Shown here in pieces: positions 2,708-35,752 of a stretch of DNA of 36,997 nt. The DNA is from Candidatus Zixiibacteriota bacterium. GTDB taxonomy: Bacteria; Zixibacteria; MSB-5A5; CAIYYT01. Within the stretch, counting starts at the first letter, position 1. Every line of letters begins with the position of its first letter. Made by a program: the position numbers and the translations under genes. Location of the stretch: positions 1 through 36,997 of the forward strand of contig JADYYF010000142.1 of the NCBI GenBank assembly GCA_020853795.1. Reading direction: 5' to 3'. The notes beneath the pieces were generated by a model, which did not search any database, was not told the origin of the DNA, and saw nothing but the letters and a program-made list of their open reading frames with translations.

Positions 2708-5856
<3,149 letters not shown>

Positions 5857-29569: not shown

Positions 29570-29589
29570 TACTGCACATTTGTGCAGTA
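29570..29589 (+). promoter_or_regulatory. LexA-type SOS operator in front of imuA
   Basis: TACTGCACATTTGTGCAGTA is a perfect palindrome with 9-bp arms around TT. It keeps the Escherichia coli-type layout TACTG-N10-CAGTA. It ends 3 nt before the imuA ATG, so a bound repressor would block transcription start or elongation. A possible -35 TTGATC lies at 29539-29544. No lexA gene is in the window, so the repressor is inferred. Confidence 0.8.
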
Positions 29590-29592
29590 TAT

Positions 29593-30513
29593 ATGAGACA
29601 GTTAGAGTTAGATATTCGGGATTTAGGCGGGAGGGAAAGCTCCCTCACCCCCGACCCCTCTCGCTTAGGAACTGCTGAGAAAGTAGGATCATCGTCAACG
29701 CAAGCGAAGCGTAGCAGTCTCACTCCCATGAATCAGCGCATACGAGATTGCTTCGTCGCGGCGGAGCGCGGAGGGAATGGTGAGGGAACGTTCGCTCCTC
29801 GCCATGACACGTTGAAGCAAGGCATGGGGATTGTTGAGAGTGCCGGTGCTGAAGCGGAATCGGAAAGGGAAAGCTCTCATTTGGCGGTACTACGGGAGTT
29901 GTTGCGGGGGCAGTGGCCCGAGGCGGGATATGTTGACCAGTTTGATCCACGGACATGTTTTCGCATCAACCTGGAATCACTCGGCGGGGTATTTCCGAAG
30001 TCGGGGATTCCGTATGGACAGATTTTGGAGATTACGGGCGGGGTGTCCTCGGGCAAAACCGGGTTACTGTTGCGAACGCTGGCGGCGCTGACGCCAACGC
30101 CACGGCTGGTTTATGTTGACGGGACGGGGACATTCTTCCCGCCGGCAGCGGCAGCGGCTGGAATCGACCCGCGGCAAATTTTGCTGTTGCGACCGGAACG
30201 GATCGGCGAGGCGATTCGCGGAGTCGAGCTACTGCTGGAGGCAAAGCTGGTGAACTGCGCGGTGTTTGACCTGGCGGGAGGGCGTGAGGTACTGCCGCGG
30301 ATTATGCTGCATCGGCTGCGCCGGCAGATCACGCGCGCCAAGGCCCTGGGGGTATTTTTGACCGAAGCTGGGGTGCATCTGCTCCCGGCCAGTTTTGTCT
30401 CGCTGCAACTGACGGTGCACAAGCTCGACCGCCACACACTGGAAGTTACCGCCACGCGGAGCCGGATCAACAACGAGGGGGCGAAAGGACGGCTGCACCT
30501 TGAAGCTGCCTGA
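29593..30513 (+). CDS. imuA: ImuA-like RecA-fold protein with an inserted N-terminal segment
   Basis: In the 306-aa protein, residues ~95-306 form a RecA-like domain with Walker A GGVSSGKT (149-156), Walker-B-like CAVFDLAGG, and a C-terminal LTVHKLDRHTLEVTATRSR. ImuA is a non-catalytic helper of the ImuB-DnaE2 mutasome that performs SOS-induced lesion bypass. Residues ~14-92 are foreign: they carry repeat P1 (ESSLTPDPS) and R1 (TFAPRHDTLKQGMGI). The insert is flanked by the 11-bp direct repeat AGGGAAAGCTC (29632-29642 and 29866-29876). Removing 234 nt (78 codons) joins MRQLELDIRDLGGRESS directly to HLAVLRELLRGQWPE in frame. The start ATG at 29593 lies 3 nt after the operator, without a clear ribosome site. 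The 3' end overlaps imuB by 14 nt. Confidence 0.85.
   Translation: MRQLELDIRDLGGRESSLTPDPSRLGTAEKVGSSSTQAKRSSLTPMNQRIRDCFVAAERGGNGEGTFAPRHDTLKQGMGIVESAGAEAESERESSHLAVLRELLRGQWPEAGYVDQFDPRTCFRINLESLGGVFPKSGIPYGQILEITGGVSSGKTGLLLRTLAALTPTPRLVYVDGTGTFFPPAAAAAGIDPRQILLLRPERIGEAIRGVELLLEAKLVNCAVFDLAGGREVLPRIMLHRLRRQITRAKALGVFLTEAGVHLLPASFVSLQLTVHKLDRHTLEVTATRSRINNEGAKGRLHLEAA
29632..29683 (+). repeat. Repeat family P, copy 1 (in imuA)
   Basis: It shares the head GGGAAAGCTCCCTC (29633-29646) with copy 4 in dnaE2 and the CCTCACCCCCGACCC-type core with copies 2 and 3. Read as ESSLTPDPS in the imuA frame. Its 3' half is diverged. Confidence 0.7.
29736..29832 (+). repeat. Repeat family R, copy 1 (in imuA)
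   Basis: 29761-29832 aligns without gaps to 32186-32257 in imuB, 64 of 72 positions identical by my count. The 5' extension (GAGATTGCTTCGTCGC) resembles a dispersed repeat seen in many bacterial genomes. Read as ERGGNGEGTFAPRHDTLKQ in the imuA frame. Confidence 0.8.
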
Positions 30514-32515
30514 TCGTTCTTTTCATGTCGCGCAGATGTGGCGGACGATTGTGGCGCGACGGGGAGCGGGGCAAAAAAGCCCCCTTGGCCCCTTTGCCAA
30601 GGGGGAATCGCGAACGTCGGTTGGTACAAAGCCTGAGTCGTCGAGTCCCCTCACCCCCGTCCCCTCGCCCAGAAGGAGGAGGGGGGAAAAAGATGCGGCG
30701 GGACGAGTGGTCTGTGCGCTGATTCCGCGGTTTGGATTGGCGCTTTACTGCAAGGACGATCCGCATCTTCTGCTCGACGCCGCGGTGCTGGCAGAGGATG
30801 GCACCGATACGGCGTTGGTTTTGGAAGTTAACGGCAAAGCAGCCAAGGCGGGAGTGACGGTCGGGATGACGGCGGCGCAGGCGGGAATGCTGTGCGCGGG
30901 TTTGGTGGTCAAGACAAAGAATCCGGCGCGGGAAGAAGAGGAACTTCAGGAGTTGCTGACGCGACTACAGGCGATCGCGCCACTGATCGAGGTGGAAACG
31001 CCGGGGGTGTTGCTGGTGGCGGCGGAAGGTTTTGACGCGCTTTACGGTGGCGAGCATCCGCTGGCCGAGCGGATCGTGCGGACAATCAAGGATTACGGTT
31101 TGCCGGTGCAGGCGGGGATCGGCGACAACCCGTTTGTGGCACGGCTGGCGGCGGAATTGACGCGACCGGGAACGGTGCAGGCTGTTGCGGCGGGGACGGC
31201 GCGCGTATTTTTGGCGCCGTTGCCGGTGAAGCATCTTCCGGTTAGTGTGGAAGTCCGCGAGCAGTTGCTGGCGCTGGGGATTCGGACGATCGGGCAGGCG
31301 GCGGAATTTCCGGCAAACGAATTAGTCGCGCGGTTCGGTGCGGAGGGGGCGCTGATTGCGCACCTGGCGCGCGGCAACGATCCGCGTCATTTCGTGCCGC
31401 TGGCATTGGAAGAAGATTTGACCGAGCGACTGATATTGGATGATCCGTACTGTCAGTTGCCGCTGGTCCTGGATTTGGCCGAGCGCGCGATGAAGCCGCT
31501 GTTGCAGCAATTGGGGCGGCGCGGGCTGGCGTGTGGGCGGATGGCGGTACGGTTGCAGTTTGCCGACCGCTCGCGGCAGACACTGGAGTTGGCGGTCGAC
31601 AAGCCAACATTGTCGCTGCGCAAGTTGCGGCGGCAACTGCAACATCAGTTGGAACAGGCACACGTTGACGACGGGGTGGTAGAGATCGCGGTCGCGCCGC
31701 TGGCGACCATGCCGCTGCACCCAACGCAGTTGGATTTGGCCGTCCGGGGCGATACCGGCAATGAAGAGCGTATCCTGGAACAGCAGATTCTCCGCAAGTC
31801 ACTCCTGACCGTACGAATTCACGCCGCGGTGTTGCCGGAGGATTGTTACTCGCTCAGTCGTTTTGATCCTCATGCAACTTCCCCACCGCCGGAGCTGCCG
31901 CTTCCGGAAACGTGCAGCAGCCGGCCCGCCTTCGCGCTGGCGGGGATTGTCGGACTGCGAACGTTCAACCCGGTGCGACGGATTGAGGTGATCAGCGAGA
32001 ACGAACAACCGCGGCTGATGATCGTGGGGGGACAGAGGCGGCGGATTGTGCGCTGTCACGGGCCGTGGCAGGTGTCGGGGCGCTGGTGGCATGACGAGTT
32101 TCGGCGCGACTATTTCGAGGTGGAAACCGAGCGGGGGGAGGTGTATTTGATTTATCGGGTGGTGCCGGGGGCGGTTAATTCCGCAGCGGAGAGCGGAGGA
32201 AATGGTCAAGCAACGTTCGCTCCTCGCAATGACACGTTGAAGCAAGGCGTGAGGATTACGGAGAGCGTCAGCGCGGGAAAGGGTAACAAATACAACCCCC
32301 TAGCCCCCTTTGCTAAGGGGGAATCGCGTGCGTCGTTTGGTACGGGGAACGGGATGTCGAGCCCCCTCACCCCCGACCCGTCTCCCAGGGGGGAGAGGGG
32401 AGAAACATCCCGTGCGCGTGGTATTCGAGGTCGCGAGAGTGAAGGCCAGATCAGAGATGGGGCGTGCCGGGGAGTGGCGGGCGCGGGCTGGTACTTGCAG
32501 GGGGTGTTTGATTGA
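30500..32515 (+). CDS. imuB: ImuB, catalytically degenerate Y-family polymerase, with repeat insertions at both ends
   Basis: The protein is 671 aa from TTG 30500 (AAAGGA upstream, 14-nt overlap with imuA). The conserved body begins at about residue 70 (VVCALIPRFGLALYCKDDP) and includes the Y-family-like ALYGG, GIGDNPFVARLAAEL and RFGAEGALIAHLARGND segments. The acidic triad of active polymerases is missing: CKDDP replaces DMDxF, and ETPGVLLVAAEGFDALYG replaces the SIDE motif region. That is typical for ImuB, a scaffold linking DnaE2 and the clamp. Residues ~20-69 (repeats Q1, P2) precede the body; GTG 30707 is an alternative start if they are untranslated leader. Residues 555-662 (R2, Q2, P3) split the C-terminal tail between EVYLIYRV and GWYLQGVFD, the normal terminus. 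dnaE2 follows without a gap. Confidence 0.88.
   Translation: MKLPDRSFHVAQMWRTIVARRGAGQKSPLGPFAKGESRTSVGTKPESSSPLTPVPSPRRRRGEKDAAGRVVCALIPRFGLALYCKDDPHLLLDAAVLAEDGTDTALVLEVNGKAAKAGVTVGMTAAQAGMLCAGLVVKTKNPAREEEELQELLTRLQAIAPLIEVETPGVLLVAAEGFDALYGGEHPLAERIVRTIKDYGLPVQAGIGDNPFVARLAAELTRPGTVQAVAAGTARVFLAPLPVKHLPVSVEVREQLLALGIRTIGQAAEFPANELVARFGAEGALIAHLARGNDPRHFVPLALEEDLTERLILDDPYCQLPLVLDLAERAMKPLLQQLGRRGLACGRMAVRLQFADRSRQTLELAVDKPTLSLRKLRRQLQHQLEQAHVDDGVVEIAVAPLATMPLHPTQLDLAVRGDTGNEERILEQQILRKSLLTVRIHAAVLPEDCYSLSRFDPHATSPPPELPLPETCSSRPAFALAGIVGLRTFNPVRRIEVISENEQPRLMIVGGQRRRIVRCHGPWQVSGRWWHDEFRRDYFEVETERGEVYLIYRVVPGAVNSAAESGGNGQATFAPRNDTLKQGVRITESVSAGKGNKYNPLAPFAKGESRASFGTGNGMSSPLTPDPSPRGERGETSRARGIRGRESEGQIRDGACRGVAGAGWYLQGVFD
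30580..30703 (+). repeat. Composite repeat Q1-P2 (imuA/imuB junction)
   Basis: Q1 (30580-30627) has a perfect 10-bp palindrome CCCCCTTGGC/GCCAAGGGGG (30580-30589, 30596-30605). A 13-nt spacer and P2 (from 30641) follow. It aligns without gaps to 32296-32396 in imuB over about 100 nt. Read as SPLGPFAKGESR and PLTPVPSP in the imuB frame. Confidence 0.8.
32186..32257 (+). repeat. Repeat family R, copy 2 (imuB C-terminal insertion)
   Basis: Second copy of R, read as ESGGNGQATFAPRNDTLKQ, the same frame as in imuA. It is the first part of a 324-nt (108-codon) insertion at 32162-32485. Confidence 0.8.
32296..32410 (+). repeat. Composite repeat Q2-P3 (imuB C-terminal insertion)
   Basis: Q2 (32296-32343), 42 of 48 positions identical to Q1, carries a nearly perfect palindrome. 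The 13-nt spacer is the same length as in Q1-P2. P3 (from 32357) can fold through TCTCCC/GGGAGA. Read as NPLAPFAKGESR and PLTPDPSPRGERGE in the imuB frame. Confidence 0.8.
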
Positions 32516-35500
32516 ATGAACTACATCGAACTGCACTGCCACTCGAATTTCTCGTTTTTGGACGGCGCGTCGCATCCGGAAGATCTGGTTGAAGCCGCTG
32601 CGCAATTGTGTTATCCCGCGCTGGCGCTGACCGATCACAACGGGCTGTATGGGATTGTTCGATTTAACCAGGTAGCCCAGCGCAAAGGGGTGCGGCCGAT
32701 TTTCGGCGCAGAGATCACACTCGACACCGGCCGGCATCTGGTGCTGTTGATCAAGGACGAGGGCGGTTACGCCAATTTGTCGCAATTGATCACGGCGGGA
32801 CAGCTGCCGCATGAAAAGGGCGAGGCGCGGATCGGGTGGGAGCAGTTGGACAAATATCGCGAAGGACTGATTGCGCTGTCGGGATGCGGGCGGGGGGAGA
32901 TTCCGACGCTGTTGCGGCGGGGCGAGACGACAGCAGCAGCGGCAGCGGCGAGTCGGTACGGCGAGTTGTTCGGGGGGGAGAATTTTTATCTGGAGATGCA
33001 GAATCATCATCTGCCGCAGCAGGAGACGGTGTGCGACCGGCTGTATGCGCTCGGGAAGCAGTTGGGACTTCCCTGCGTCGCGACCAATAATGTGCATTAC
33101 GCACGCGCCGACGGCCGACGGTTGCAGGATGTGCTGACCTGTATCAAACACCACACCGATCTGGATGCCGCCAACGGGAGGCTCTATCCCAACGGCGAGC
33201 GGTATCTGAAGGCACCGGCGGAGATGGCGCGGCTGTTCCAGGCGTATCCGGAAGCGGTGGCCAACACCCAGACGATTGCGGAGCGCTGCCGGTTTGTCCT
33301 GAATGCGCTGCCGACTTCCCTGCCGGAGTTTGCGATCCCCACAGGGCATACGCCGCACACCTATCTGCGCGAAATCACCTACCGCGGCGCGCGCGAACGC
33401 TGGGGTACGATTTTGCCGGCACAGCGACGACAACTGGAGCACGAGTTGCACCTGATCAACAAGCTCGATTTATCGGGGTATTTTTTGATCGTGTGGGATA
33501 TCGCGCGGTTTTGCCACGAACAGGCGATTCTGGCGCAGGGGCGCGGGTCGGCGGCGAATTCGGCGGTGTGCTATTGCCTGGGGATAACGGCGGTGGATCC
33601 GATCAAGCTGAAATTGCTGTTCGAGCGGTTCTTGTCGGAGGAGCGGCGCGAACCGCCGGATATCGACATCGATATCGCCAACAACCGGCGTGAAGAGGTG
33701 ATTCAGTATGTCTACAACAAATACGGGCGCGCGCATGCGGCGATGGTCTGCGAGGTGATCTGCTATCGCGGGCGGTCGGCGGTACGCGATGTCGGGAAGG
33801 CGCTGGGATTTTCGCTGGAGGAAGTGGACCGGCTGGCCAAGCTGCTGCACCACTATTCGAGCGGCGATGATGTCACGGCGATTATCGAAGAAGCCAAACT
33901 GAACAGCGGCAGCGCGCGGGTGGGGTTACTGCTGGAACTGGCGCAGCAGATTCAGGATTTTCCACGCCATCTCGGTATCCACTCGGGGGGGATGATCGTC
34001 ACCGGTAAGCCGTTGTCGCAGGTGGTGCCGATCGAAAATGCCACGATGCCGGAGCGGAGCGTGATCCAGTGGGATAAGGATGATGCGGGTGAGGTCGGGC
34101 TGGTTAAGATCGATCTGTTGGGACTGGGGATGCTGTCGTTGATCGATATTGCGTTCAAGCTGATTGCGCGCCAGCGCGGGCTGAAGCTCGATCCGGCGAA
34201 ACTGGCGTATGACGATCCGCGGGTGTACGAGTTGCTCAGCAAGGCCGAGACGGTCGGGGTGTTTCAGGTCGAGTCGCGCGCGCAGATGAACACGCTGCCG
34301 CGCCTGCAACCGCGTTGTTTTTATGATCTGGTGGTCGAAGTGGCGCTGATTCGGCCGGGGCCGATTCAGGGGGAGATGGTGCATCCGTATCTGCGACGGC
34401 GAGCGGGCGAGGAGGAGGTGACCTATCCGCATCCGTCGCTCAAGCCGATTTTAGAGCGGACGCTCGGAGTGCCGCTGTTTCAGGAGCAAGGGATGCAGGT
34501 GGCGATTGCGGCGGCGGGATTCAGTCCGAGCCAGGCGGATGAATTGCGACGTGCCATGGGGCACAAACGATCGCGCGAGCGCATGGAGGCGATCGCGCTG
34601 GATCTAATCGAGGGGATGACGCGGCACGGGATCGAGCAGGAGGTGGCGATGCGAATCTACAAGCAGTTGACGGCGTTCGCCGACTACGGCTTCCCCGAAT
34701 CGCACGCGGCATCGTTTGCCCTGCTGGTGTATGTGTCGGCGTACCTGAAGGTCTACTTCGCGCCGGAGTTTTACTGCGCGCTGCTGAACGCGCAGCCGAT
34801 GGGGTTTTATTCGCCGGCGAGCATTGTTTACGAGGGGCAGCGACGCGAGGTGACGTTTTTGCCGGTGGATGTCAATCGGAGTTCGTGGGATTGCACGATC
34901 GAGGCGGATGTTCGTGCCGCGACGACTTCAACTGCGGAGAAACTCGAATTGCGGGAAAGCTCCCTCGCGCCCGATTCGGTTCGCTCACGGATGAGGGAGA
35001 AAGACGCCGCGGGCGGTGAATCCGAAGGTACACAGAACGAGCAGCCGGCAGTGCGGTTGGGATACCGGTACGTCAAGGGATTGGGGGCGGATGCGCAGGA
35101 GATAATCGAGCGCGAACTGGCACGCGGGCCGTTTGCGTCGCTGGAAGATTTTGTGTACCGCACGCAATTGAATCGCGGCGCGCTGCAGCAGTTGGCGATG
35201 GTCGGAGCGTTTGACAGTTTCGGAATTACGCGGCGGCAGGCGGCGTGGCAGATTATGGCACTTACCGGGAGATCGAGCCAGGAACTACGTTTGCCGACGC
35301 CGGAACGGGGCGCGCTGCTTCTGCCGGTAATGCTTCCCGCCGAGGAATTGATCGCGGATTTCAAGGGGATGGATTTGTCGACGGCGCCGCATTTGATGCG
35401 CTTTGTGCGGCCGCAACTGGCGGCGCGGGGATTCAAGAACTCGGCGGATTTGGCGCAAACGCCCGACCGGCAACGAGTGCAGGTAGCGGGAATAATCGTG

Positions 35501-35752
35501 ATCCGGCAACGGCCCGGAACAGCGAAGGGGTTTTTGTTTATCACGCTGGAAGACGAGGCCGGGTTTATCAACGTCGTGGTCAAACCACAGCAGGTGGCGC
35601 AATTCGGGCGGATCGTGACCGACGGCAAGGCGCTGGTAGTAACCGGGACGGTGGAAAAGCAGGACGGGGTGATCAACGTGATCGGGAGAGATTTCCGGCC
35701 GCTGGAATTTGCCTTCCAAGATTTGGCGATCAAGTCGCGCGATTTTCGATAA
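32516..35752 (+). CDS. dnaE2: DnaE2, error-prone DNA polymerase III alpha subunit, with in-frame repeat insertion
   Basis: The 1078-aa protein starts with a PHP domain (MNYIELHCHSNFSFLDGASHPEDL). The palm motifs are RGSAANSAVCYCLGIT, PDIDIDI (two catalytic Asp) and KIDLLGLGML (third Asp); FPESHAASFALLVYVSAYLK is the family signature. A C-terminal OB domain (VQVAGIIVIRQRPGTAKGFLFITLEDE) follows, as in DnaE2 rather than replicative DnaE1. All catalytic residues are present, so this is the active polymerase of the mutasome. Residues ~799-844 are an insertion carrying repeat P4 (ESSLAPDSV...REKDAAG) between DCTIEAD and AVRLGYRYVKGLG, which are adjacent in the family. ATG begins immediately after the imuB stop. 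It converges on the last gene with 2 nt between stops. Confidence 0.93.
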   Translation: MNYIELHCHSNFSFLDGASHPEDLVEAAAQLCYPALALTDHNGLYGIVRFNQVAQRKGVRPIFGAEITLDTGRHLVLLIKDEGGYANLSQLITAGQLPHEKGEARIGWEQLDKYREGLIALSGCGRGEIPTLLRRGETTAAAAAASRYGELFGGENFYLEMQNHHLPQQETVCDRLYALGKQLGLPCVATNNVHYARADGRRLQDVLTCIKHHTDLDAANGRLYPNGERYLKAPAEMARLFQAYPEAVANTQTIAERCRFVLNALPTSLPEFAIPTGHTPHTYLREITYRGARERWGTILPAQRRQLEHELHLINKLDLSGYFLIVWDIARFCHEQAILAQGRGSAANSAVCYCLGITAVDPIKLKLLFERFLSEERREPPDIDIDIANNRREEVIQYVYNKYGRAHAAMVCEVICYRGRSAVRDVGKALGFSLEEVDRLAKLLHHYSSGDDVTAIIEEAKLNSGSARVGLLLELAQQIQDFPRHLGIHSGGMIVTGKPLSQVVPIENATMPERSVIQWDKDDAGEVGLVKIDLLGLGMLSLIDIAFKLIARQRGLKLDPAKLAYDDPRVYELLSKAETVGVFQVESRAQMNTLPRLQPRCFYDLVVEVALIRPGPIQGEMVHPYLRRRAGEEEVTYPHPSLKPILERTLGVPLFQEQGMQVAIAAAGFSPSQADELRRAMGHKRSRERMEAIALDLIEGMTRHGIEQEVAMRIYKQLTAFADYGFPESHAASFALLVYVSAYLKVYFAPEFYCALLNAQPMGFYSPASIVYEGQRREVTFLPVDVNRSSWDCTIEADVRAATTSTAEKLELRESSLAPDSVRSRMREKDAAGGESEGTQNEQPAVRLGYRYVKGLGADAQEIIERELARGPFASLEDFVYRTQLNRGALQQLAMVGAFDSFGITRRQAAWQIMALTGRSSQELRLPTPERGALLLPVMLPAEELIADFKGMDLSTAPHLMRFVRPQLAARGFKNSADLAQTPDRQRVQVAGIIVIRQRPGTAKGFLFITLEDEAGFINVVVKPQQVAQFGRIVTDGKALVVTGTVEKQDGVINVIGRDFRPLEFAFQDLAIKSRDFR
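34952..35014 (+). repeat. Repeat family P, copy 4 (in dnaE2)
   Basis: Head GGGAAAGCTCCCTC (34953-34966) is identical to copy 1. The tail (GAGAAAGACGCCGCGGG) matches the end of copy 2. Read as ESSLAPDSV...MREKDAAGG in the dnaE2 frame, the same frame as the other copies. Confidence 0.75.

Follow-up and report, generated by a model that had tools for sequence, protein, structure and literature searches.

How did 108 codons come to lie between the last two conserved strands of an ImuB protein, and what do they mean for the mutagenesis machinery of which it is part? The gene in question lies in a window of 36,997 nt (the whole stretch of DNA analysed here, contig JADYYF010000142.1) from a Candidatus Zixiibacteriota bacterium. 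The source is a draft assembly of 215 contigs (3.56 Mb), and conclusions on the insert rest on the assembled contig. We think it probable that an array of three dispersed repeats (R, Q and P) was inserted in frame into the final turn of the C-terminal domain (ImuB-C), where it is tolerated as a disordered loop, and that part of the array was copied locally. The labels ImuB-C and RecA-NT are taken from PMC11791113 and PMC6511836.

The operon and the segment within ImuB-C

The imuA–imuB–dnaE2 operon spans positions 29593–35752 of the plus strand. The dnaE2 gene (32516–35752) matches NF004225 at 1338.8 bits, above the cut-off, and ImuB is recognised by its IMS domain (PF00817, residues 78–218; 57.1 bits, cut-off 23.2). 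The RecA-like ImuA (29593–30513) is identified by PF00154 only (27.6 bits against a cut-off of 27; NF033429 gives 35 bits, far under its cut-off of 150); homologues detected by tblastn, with approximately 29–43% identity, adjoin imuB in 31 of the 81 loci searched. The longest imuB frame (30500–32515) encodes 671 aa, but because relatives begin there the true start is probably GTG 30707. Start comparison with relatives likewise suggests that imuA possibly begins at 29818.

A LexA-box palindrome, ACTGCACATTTGTGCAGT, lies upstream of imuA (29571–29588, plus strand). Allowing up to one mismatch, LexA-box-like motifs occur at three sites in the genome (29571–29588, G000:C133:22260-22277 and G000:C15:3924-3941); besides the one at imuA, one stands directly before lexA (TIGR00498, 213 bits) and the other precedes the gene of a Hel308-like helicase. 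Similar motifs are found upstream of imuA in six related loci (L132, L133, L135, L136, L137 and L141). The sites at lexA, at the helicase gene and at imuA of relatives make it very probable that the operon is SOS-controlled, and ACTGCACAnnTGTGCAGT is the probable LexA box of the lineage. The imuA leader of L136 also holds a sequence encoding LDSRLRGND, which may be another widespread dispersed repeat.

The inserted segment occupies 32162–32485 of the plus strand (ImuB residues 555–662), as judged from alignments, an AlphaFold model and the lack of a Pfam match. It is preceded by the penultimate conserved strand, VYLIYRV (32141–32161; alignments and model), and followed by the last, GWYLQGVFD (32486–32512; alignments, pLDDT ~83). 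The original prediction had placed these boundaries correctly: residue 555 begins at 32162 and GWYLQGVFD at 32486. It had also given the insertion as exactly 324 nt, which is right for the whole inter-strand segment but not for the size of the insertion, since in relatives the two strands of ImuB-C are joined by a tight turn of about 4–7 residues. The net gain is approximately 104 aa (312 nt), give or take a few codons at the edges.

Across the 324 nt the ImuB frame contains no stop codon, so the frame is indeed kept through all the repeats; the other two forward frames contain three and five. Glycine, serine, proline and arginine abound in the encoded loop, and its predicted translation includes the peptides ITESVSAGK and GNKYNPLAPFAK. 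Broken down by codon position (1/2/3), the GC-content of the insert is.62/.64/.64, compared to.71/.44/.73 in the ImuB core. This flat profile points to DNA with a non-coding past and is as expected of recently recruited non-coding DNA.

A frame that is open by luck would also be found if imuB were decaying, or if the segment were an assembly artefact. The contig is from a draft, repeats provoke misassembly, and 86 of 2000 dinucleotide shuffles of the insert (4.3%) are likewise open. Against this, the sequence downstream of the insert is precisely that of an ImuB terminus, with dnaE2 beginning immediately behind it, frame and length are both preserved, and the ImuB core and DnaE2 are intact. 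We consider decay or artefact very improbable.

If the segment were a conserved part of the family, then relatives should carry it. Among named records the closest ImuB relatives belong to Candidatus Zixiibacteriota / candidate division GN15. A conserved domain of similar length at this place, named in advance as the finding that would speak against an insertion, was looked for: none of 19 aligned Zixibacterial ImuB proteins has such a segment (the alignment excluded L011 and L023, which nearly duplicate other sequences, as well as L025 and L027, in which the end is missing). The insert has no match in Pfam, and a PDB search returned weak Fab matches only (best E 0.26); a conserved extra domain was accordingly rejected. 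The distance from the motif GPWxxSGxWW to the stop codon tells the same story. In the best 80 of 96 named ImuB genes the median is 37 aa; 72 of the 80 fall between 34 and 42, and the eight outliers measure 14, 45, 45, 49, 59, 60, 82 and 82. In the window's ImuB the motif ends at residue 530 of the 671-aa frame and the distance is 141. Absent from aligned relatives and composed of dispersed repeats (see below), the segment is an insertion that splits the conserved C-terminal domain, as had been proposed.

Variation in the length of this turn is not unique to repeats: two Verrucomicrobial sequences, L184 and L186, have some 22 aa more in the last turn, and L206 carries a long insert of simple sequence. 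The ImuB of L026 (genome G027) carries, in the linker preceding ImuB-C, a 40-residue stretch of tandem GTSAGHKIQ-like units. In the only genome of the same genus (G003) ImuB is just 29% identical to that of the window, too divergent to serve as an empty site from which a target-site duplication or the age of the insertion could be read. At the G003 locus (C376; L002, L215) DnaE2 is 54% identical. Both values are below those for another family of the class (ImuB 32–38%, DnaE2 ~62%), and horizontal exchange of the cassette is possible.

Repeat families R, Q and P and their copies in the operon

A search with the insert DNA yields 52 matches in the 3.56 Mb genome. Most of the insert belongs to three families of dispersed short repeats, found at 118 places (R 34, Q 17 and P 67). 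The core R and Q patterns were counted at up to three mismatches, where reversed-pattern controls gave one and zero matches, respectively. The core P pattern was counted at up to two mismatches (48 of the 67 are exact); the reversed P pattern, being nearly mirror-symmetric, matches the same kind of site, and gave 47 matches at two mismatches and none at zero. The 112 of 118 places that were fetched form 74 clusters, 26 of which are multi-copy; in 24 of these 26 all copies share a single orientation. R followed by Q at a distance of some 80–90 nt recurs among the clusters, and dense repeats are also present in C60, C33 and C114. The operon is thus unusual for its internal coding copies, not for its repeat density.

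Three copies make up most of the insert (all plus strand). R2 and its 3' flank lie at 32182–32265, Q2 at 32287–32326 (encoding PLAPFAKGES) and P3 with its 3' flank at 32358–32447 (encoding SPLTPDPSPRGERGE); the P3 flank is shared with a C27 copy to 32447 (78%) and with a C75 copy to 32437. Some 58 nt of the segment have no counterpart among the repeats. Four further copies lie upstream: P1 (29634–29664) and R1 (29757–29840) in the 5' region of imuA (leader or ImuA N-terminus), and the Q1–P2 unit (30572–30694), probably in the imuA–imuB spacer. That the ImuA and ImuB N-terminal copies are surely coding was considered and rejected, since relatives start later and only 4 nt separate the LexA box from ATG 29593; P1, R1, Q1 and P2 probably belong to the leader and the spacer.

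The copies named R2, Q2 and P3 in the original prediction are real: R2 is 86% identical to R1 over 84 nt, Q2–P3 (32287–32408) is ~78% identical to Q1–P2 over ~122 nt, and all have copies genome-wide. A third Q–P unit, on C105, is 73% identical. A 27-nt stretch of flank (32231–32257) recurs at 29806–29832 and nowhere else in the genome, which argues that one of R1 and R2 was copied from the other together with flanking DNA. To judge from the sequence, local copying contributed to the insert.

All seven window copies fold, with hairpin energies that modestly beat shuffles (z −0.66 to −2.87), and all seven have the same orientation. Copies in the leader, in the imuA–imuB spacer and in imuB itself, in one orientation and including direct repeats that agree in codon phase (R1/R2, 84 nt; Q1–P2/Q2–P3, ~122 nt), could mean that the element acts as RNA or DNA, with mRNA hairpins setting the ImuB:DnaE2 ratio, or direct repeats allowing imuB to delete, and the peptide a by-product. 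Yet the folding exceeds that of shuffles only modestly, no Rfam family is found above its gathering score (the one candidate, scr5239 on the minus strand, reaches 23.9 bits where 64 would be needed, and was rejected), and an identity of 78–86% is low for recombination. We regard such an element as distinctly improbable.

The ends of the repeats are imprecisely defined, and no GTAG/CGTC tag was recognised by eye on the window copies. The genome has two PF01797 matches, and no clear link between a tyrosine transposase and the window's repeats was found. One 10.8-kb contig (G000:C14, L212) carries a PF01797 tyrosine-transposase gene (5249–5575) with four P copies 3–4 kb off, on both sides. The abundance of PF01797 gave no explanation for that of the repeats: the family is present in 119 of 132 genomes of the phylum, compared to 14 of 132 for exact P.

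Repeat-derived segments in other proteins

Outside the window we asked which copies lie within open reading frames of 130 aa or more that extend 30 aa or more beyond the copy in both directions and have a Pfam match. Such a test misses genes whose family is unknown, as well as copies close to the end of a gene. Among the 112 of 118 places fetched, just one of 37 repeat-spanning frames has a Pfam match. This is a Q copy (G000:C47:1163-1195, L068), in frame about 258 residues into a Glyco_transf_22 (Alg9-like) protein, where it encodes DSPLAKGVRGL between likely membrane segments. ImuB is hence, as tested, one of two recognisable proteins with internal repeat copies in this genome.

A second ImuB insertion is found in G022, a genome of the same class and another family. 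Its ImuB-C has its own repeat-made insert of ~45 aa (L008:2915–3060, CP070824.1) in the preceding turn, before YLLFYD; the named record CP070824.1 is also our L132, the tail of which is identical to that of G022. The insert consists of two palindromic repeats of G022's own genome, which differ from R, Q and P, and on its sequence the insertion is independent of that in the window. Searching with the 144-nt insert gave 10 matches, itself included. Not one of the others is found deep within a recognisable protein. Two reach just into the start of long frames, one of them 12 residues into an FGE-sulfatase frame and the other in the DnaE2 frame, before the PHP domain. One of these two, at the imuB–dnaE2 junction, is an additional repeat copy in the imu operon of G022.

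The DnaE2 of the window also carries an insert of ~45 aa (34905–35045, plus strand; residues ~797–843) in a variable loop. Among 25 aligned of 52 loci covering this loop, five Zixibacterial DnaE2 proteins have no insert and the Rokubacterial L149 has its own. The insert shares a 22-nt match (91%) with the P1 region, with a score of 34 compared to 21 for P copies outside the window; the score to P1 is reached by 1 of 500 shuffles and by 0 of 78 and 0 of 392 controls. The resemblance is to the P1 region only, and the insert was therefore rejected as a general P copy; tentatively, it may be a degenerate repeat related to that region.

Structure, partner contacts and significance

ImuB residues 70–671 were modelled by AlphaFold with 40 named relatives (69 is to be added to model positions for protein numbering). 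In the 41 sequences G, P, W, S, G, W and W of GPWxxSGxWW are invariant; DUF6504 scores 15.8 bits, below its cut-off of 24.2. The model places ImuB-C strands at 417–431, 434–440, 443–457, 466–474 and 479–485, then a loop (486–593) with pLDDT ~30–35, and a last strand (594–601; pLDDT ~83) that is still docked. In the control relative L137, without an insert, the last two strands (474–480 and 485–492) are separated by a four-residue turn. The insert is modelled as a separate loop; its low pLDDT hints weakly at disorder.

The original prediction held that the insertion, by splitting a tail thought to contribute partner contacts, could alter mutasome assembly. The contacts that were tested lie elsewhere. 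Residue 410 is the conserved Q of what is presumed to be the β-clamp motif; it is followed by a model helix (350–362) and strand (367–371) that fit RecA-NT at ~419–440 in protein numbering, and both regions are upstream of the insert and uninterrupted. RecA-NT is described as the key contact to ImuA', with ImuB-C stabilising (PMC11791113, PMC6511836), and in M. smegmatis deletion of the whole of ImuB-C is reported to leave ImuA' binding (PMC11791113). As it was stated, the proposal finds no support in these data. An effect on assembly through DnaE2 is possible, because ImuB-C is the main candidate for DnaE2 binding (PMC6511836).

The insert might then weaken or tune the docking of ImuB-C to DnaE2 or ImuA, alter induced mutagenesis, and have been selected or kept for that. 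The candidate role of ImuB-C, the independent insert in the neighbouring turn in G022, the insert in DnaE2 of the same operon, and the intragenic REPs reported from numerous repair genes, for which a like effect was speculated on (PMC3733652), all fit such a role. The flat codon-position composition and predicted disorder of the insert do not, nor does the dispensability of ImuB-C for ImuA' binding in M. smegmatis (PMC11791113), and we consider it unlikely.

The reading that we prefer is one of tolerance. Dispersed repeats of the same genome, most of them apparently able to form hairpins, would have entered the turn between the last two strands as an array and in frame; part of the array was copied locally, given that the flank of R2 recurs only in the imuA leader. 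We infer that the array is translated into a loop of ~104 residues that stays disordered and that, because it occupies a β-turn, leaves the last strand free to pair. Domain and gene would thereby stay whole, with the insertion tolerated rather than useful.

The insert resembles the Rickettsia palindromic elements (RPE), short palindromic dispersed repeats that lie in frame in conserved proteins and are tolerated (PMC2229807); gmk carrying an RPE is reported to remain active (PMC2229807). It differs in belonging to another phylum and in being a mosaic of three families (~104 aa), and it is likened to RPE by description, not sequence. GTAG/CGTC REPs are likewise intragenic, often with repair genes as hosts (Di Nocera 2013, PMC3733652). 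The hosts are reported to include many repair genes, dnaE2 among them, and the intragenic clusters to encode 43–82 aa; recB of two Xanthomonas species carries a REP at about the same site, and a mutator role was speculated (PMC3733652). ImuB and ImuA have no occurrence in the main text of that paper, and the window's repeats lack a recognised GTAG/CGTC tag or clear tyrosine-transposase link; we do not claim that R, Q and P belong to either group. In literature searches, judged by titles and the beginnings of abstracts, we recognised no paper on repeats in ImuB. In its Y-family domain, operon, ImuB-C motif and C-terminal WYLQGVFD the window's protein is like known ImuB; it is unlike them in the long repeat-derived loop in its final turn.

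Intragenic palindromic repeats, often in repair genes, are already known; their recurrence in ImuB-C is unusual, if a matter of just two cases within a single phylum. It is conceivable, if unlikely, that a genome's palindromic repeats favour the SOS mutagenesis operon, perhaps under selection, and that inserts in adjacent ImuB-C turns of two unrelated lineages (and in the DnaE2 loop) tune how the error-prone polymerase is held; were this true, selfish repeats and the induced mutation rate would evolve together. The idea, put forward in 2013, that mutation is modulated by repeats lying in repair genes becomes directly testable, and last turns of ImuB-C that accept large insertions would be useful for tagging ImuB. 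The locus provides a clean, structurally placed case in which genome repeats have entered a protein of the mutagenesis machinery. One and the same domain has been struck twice, by unrelated repeats in two lineages, and intragenic copies are otherwise rare in both genomes as tested.
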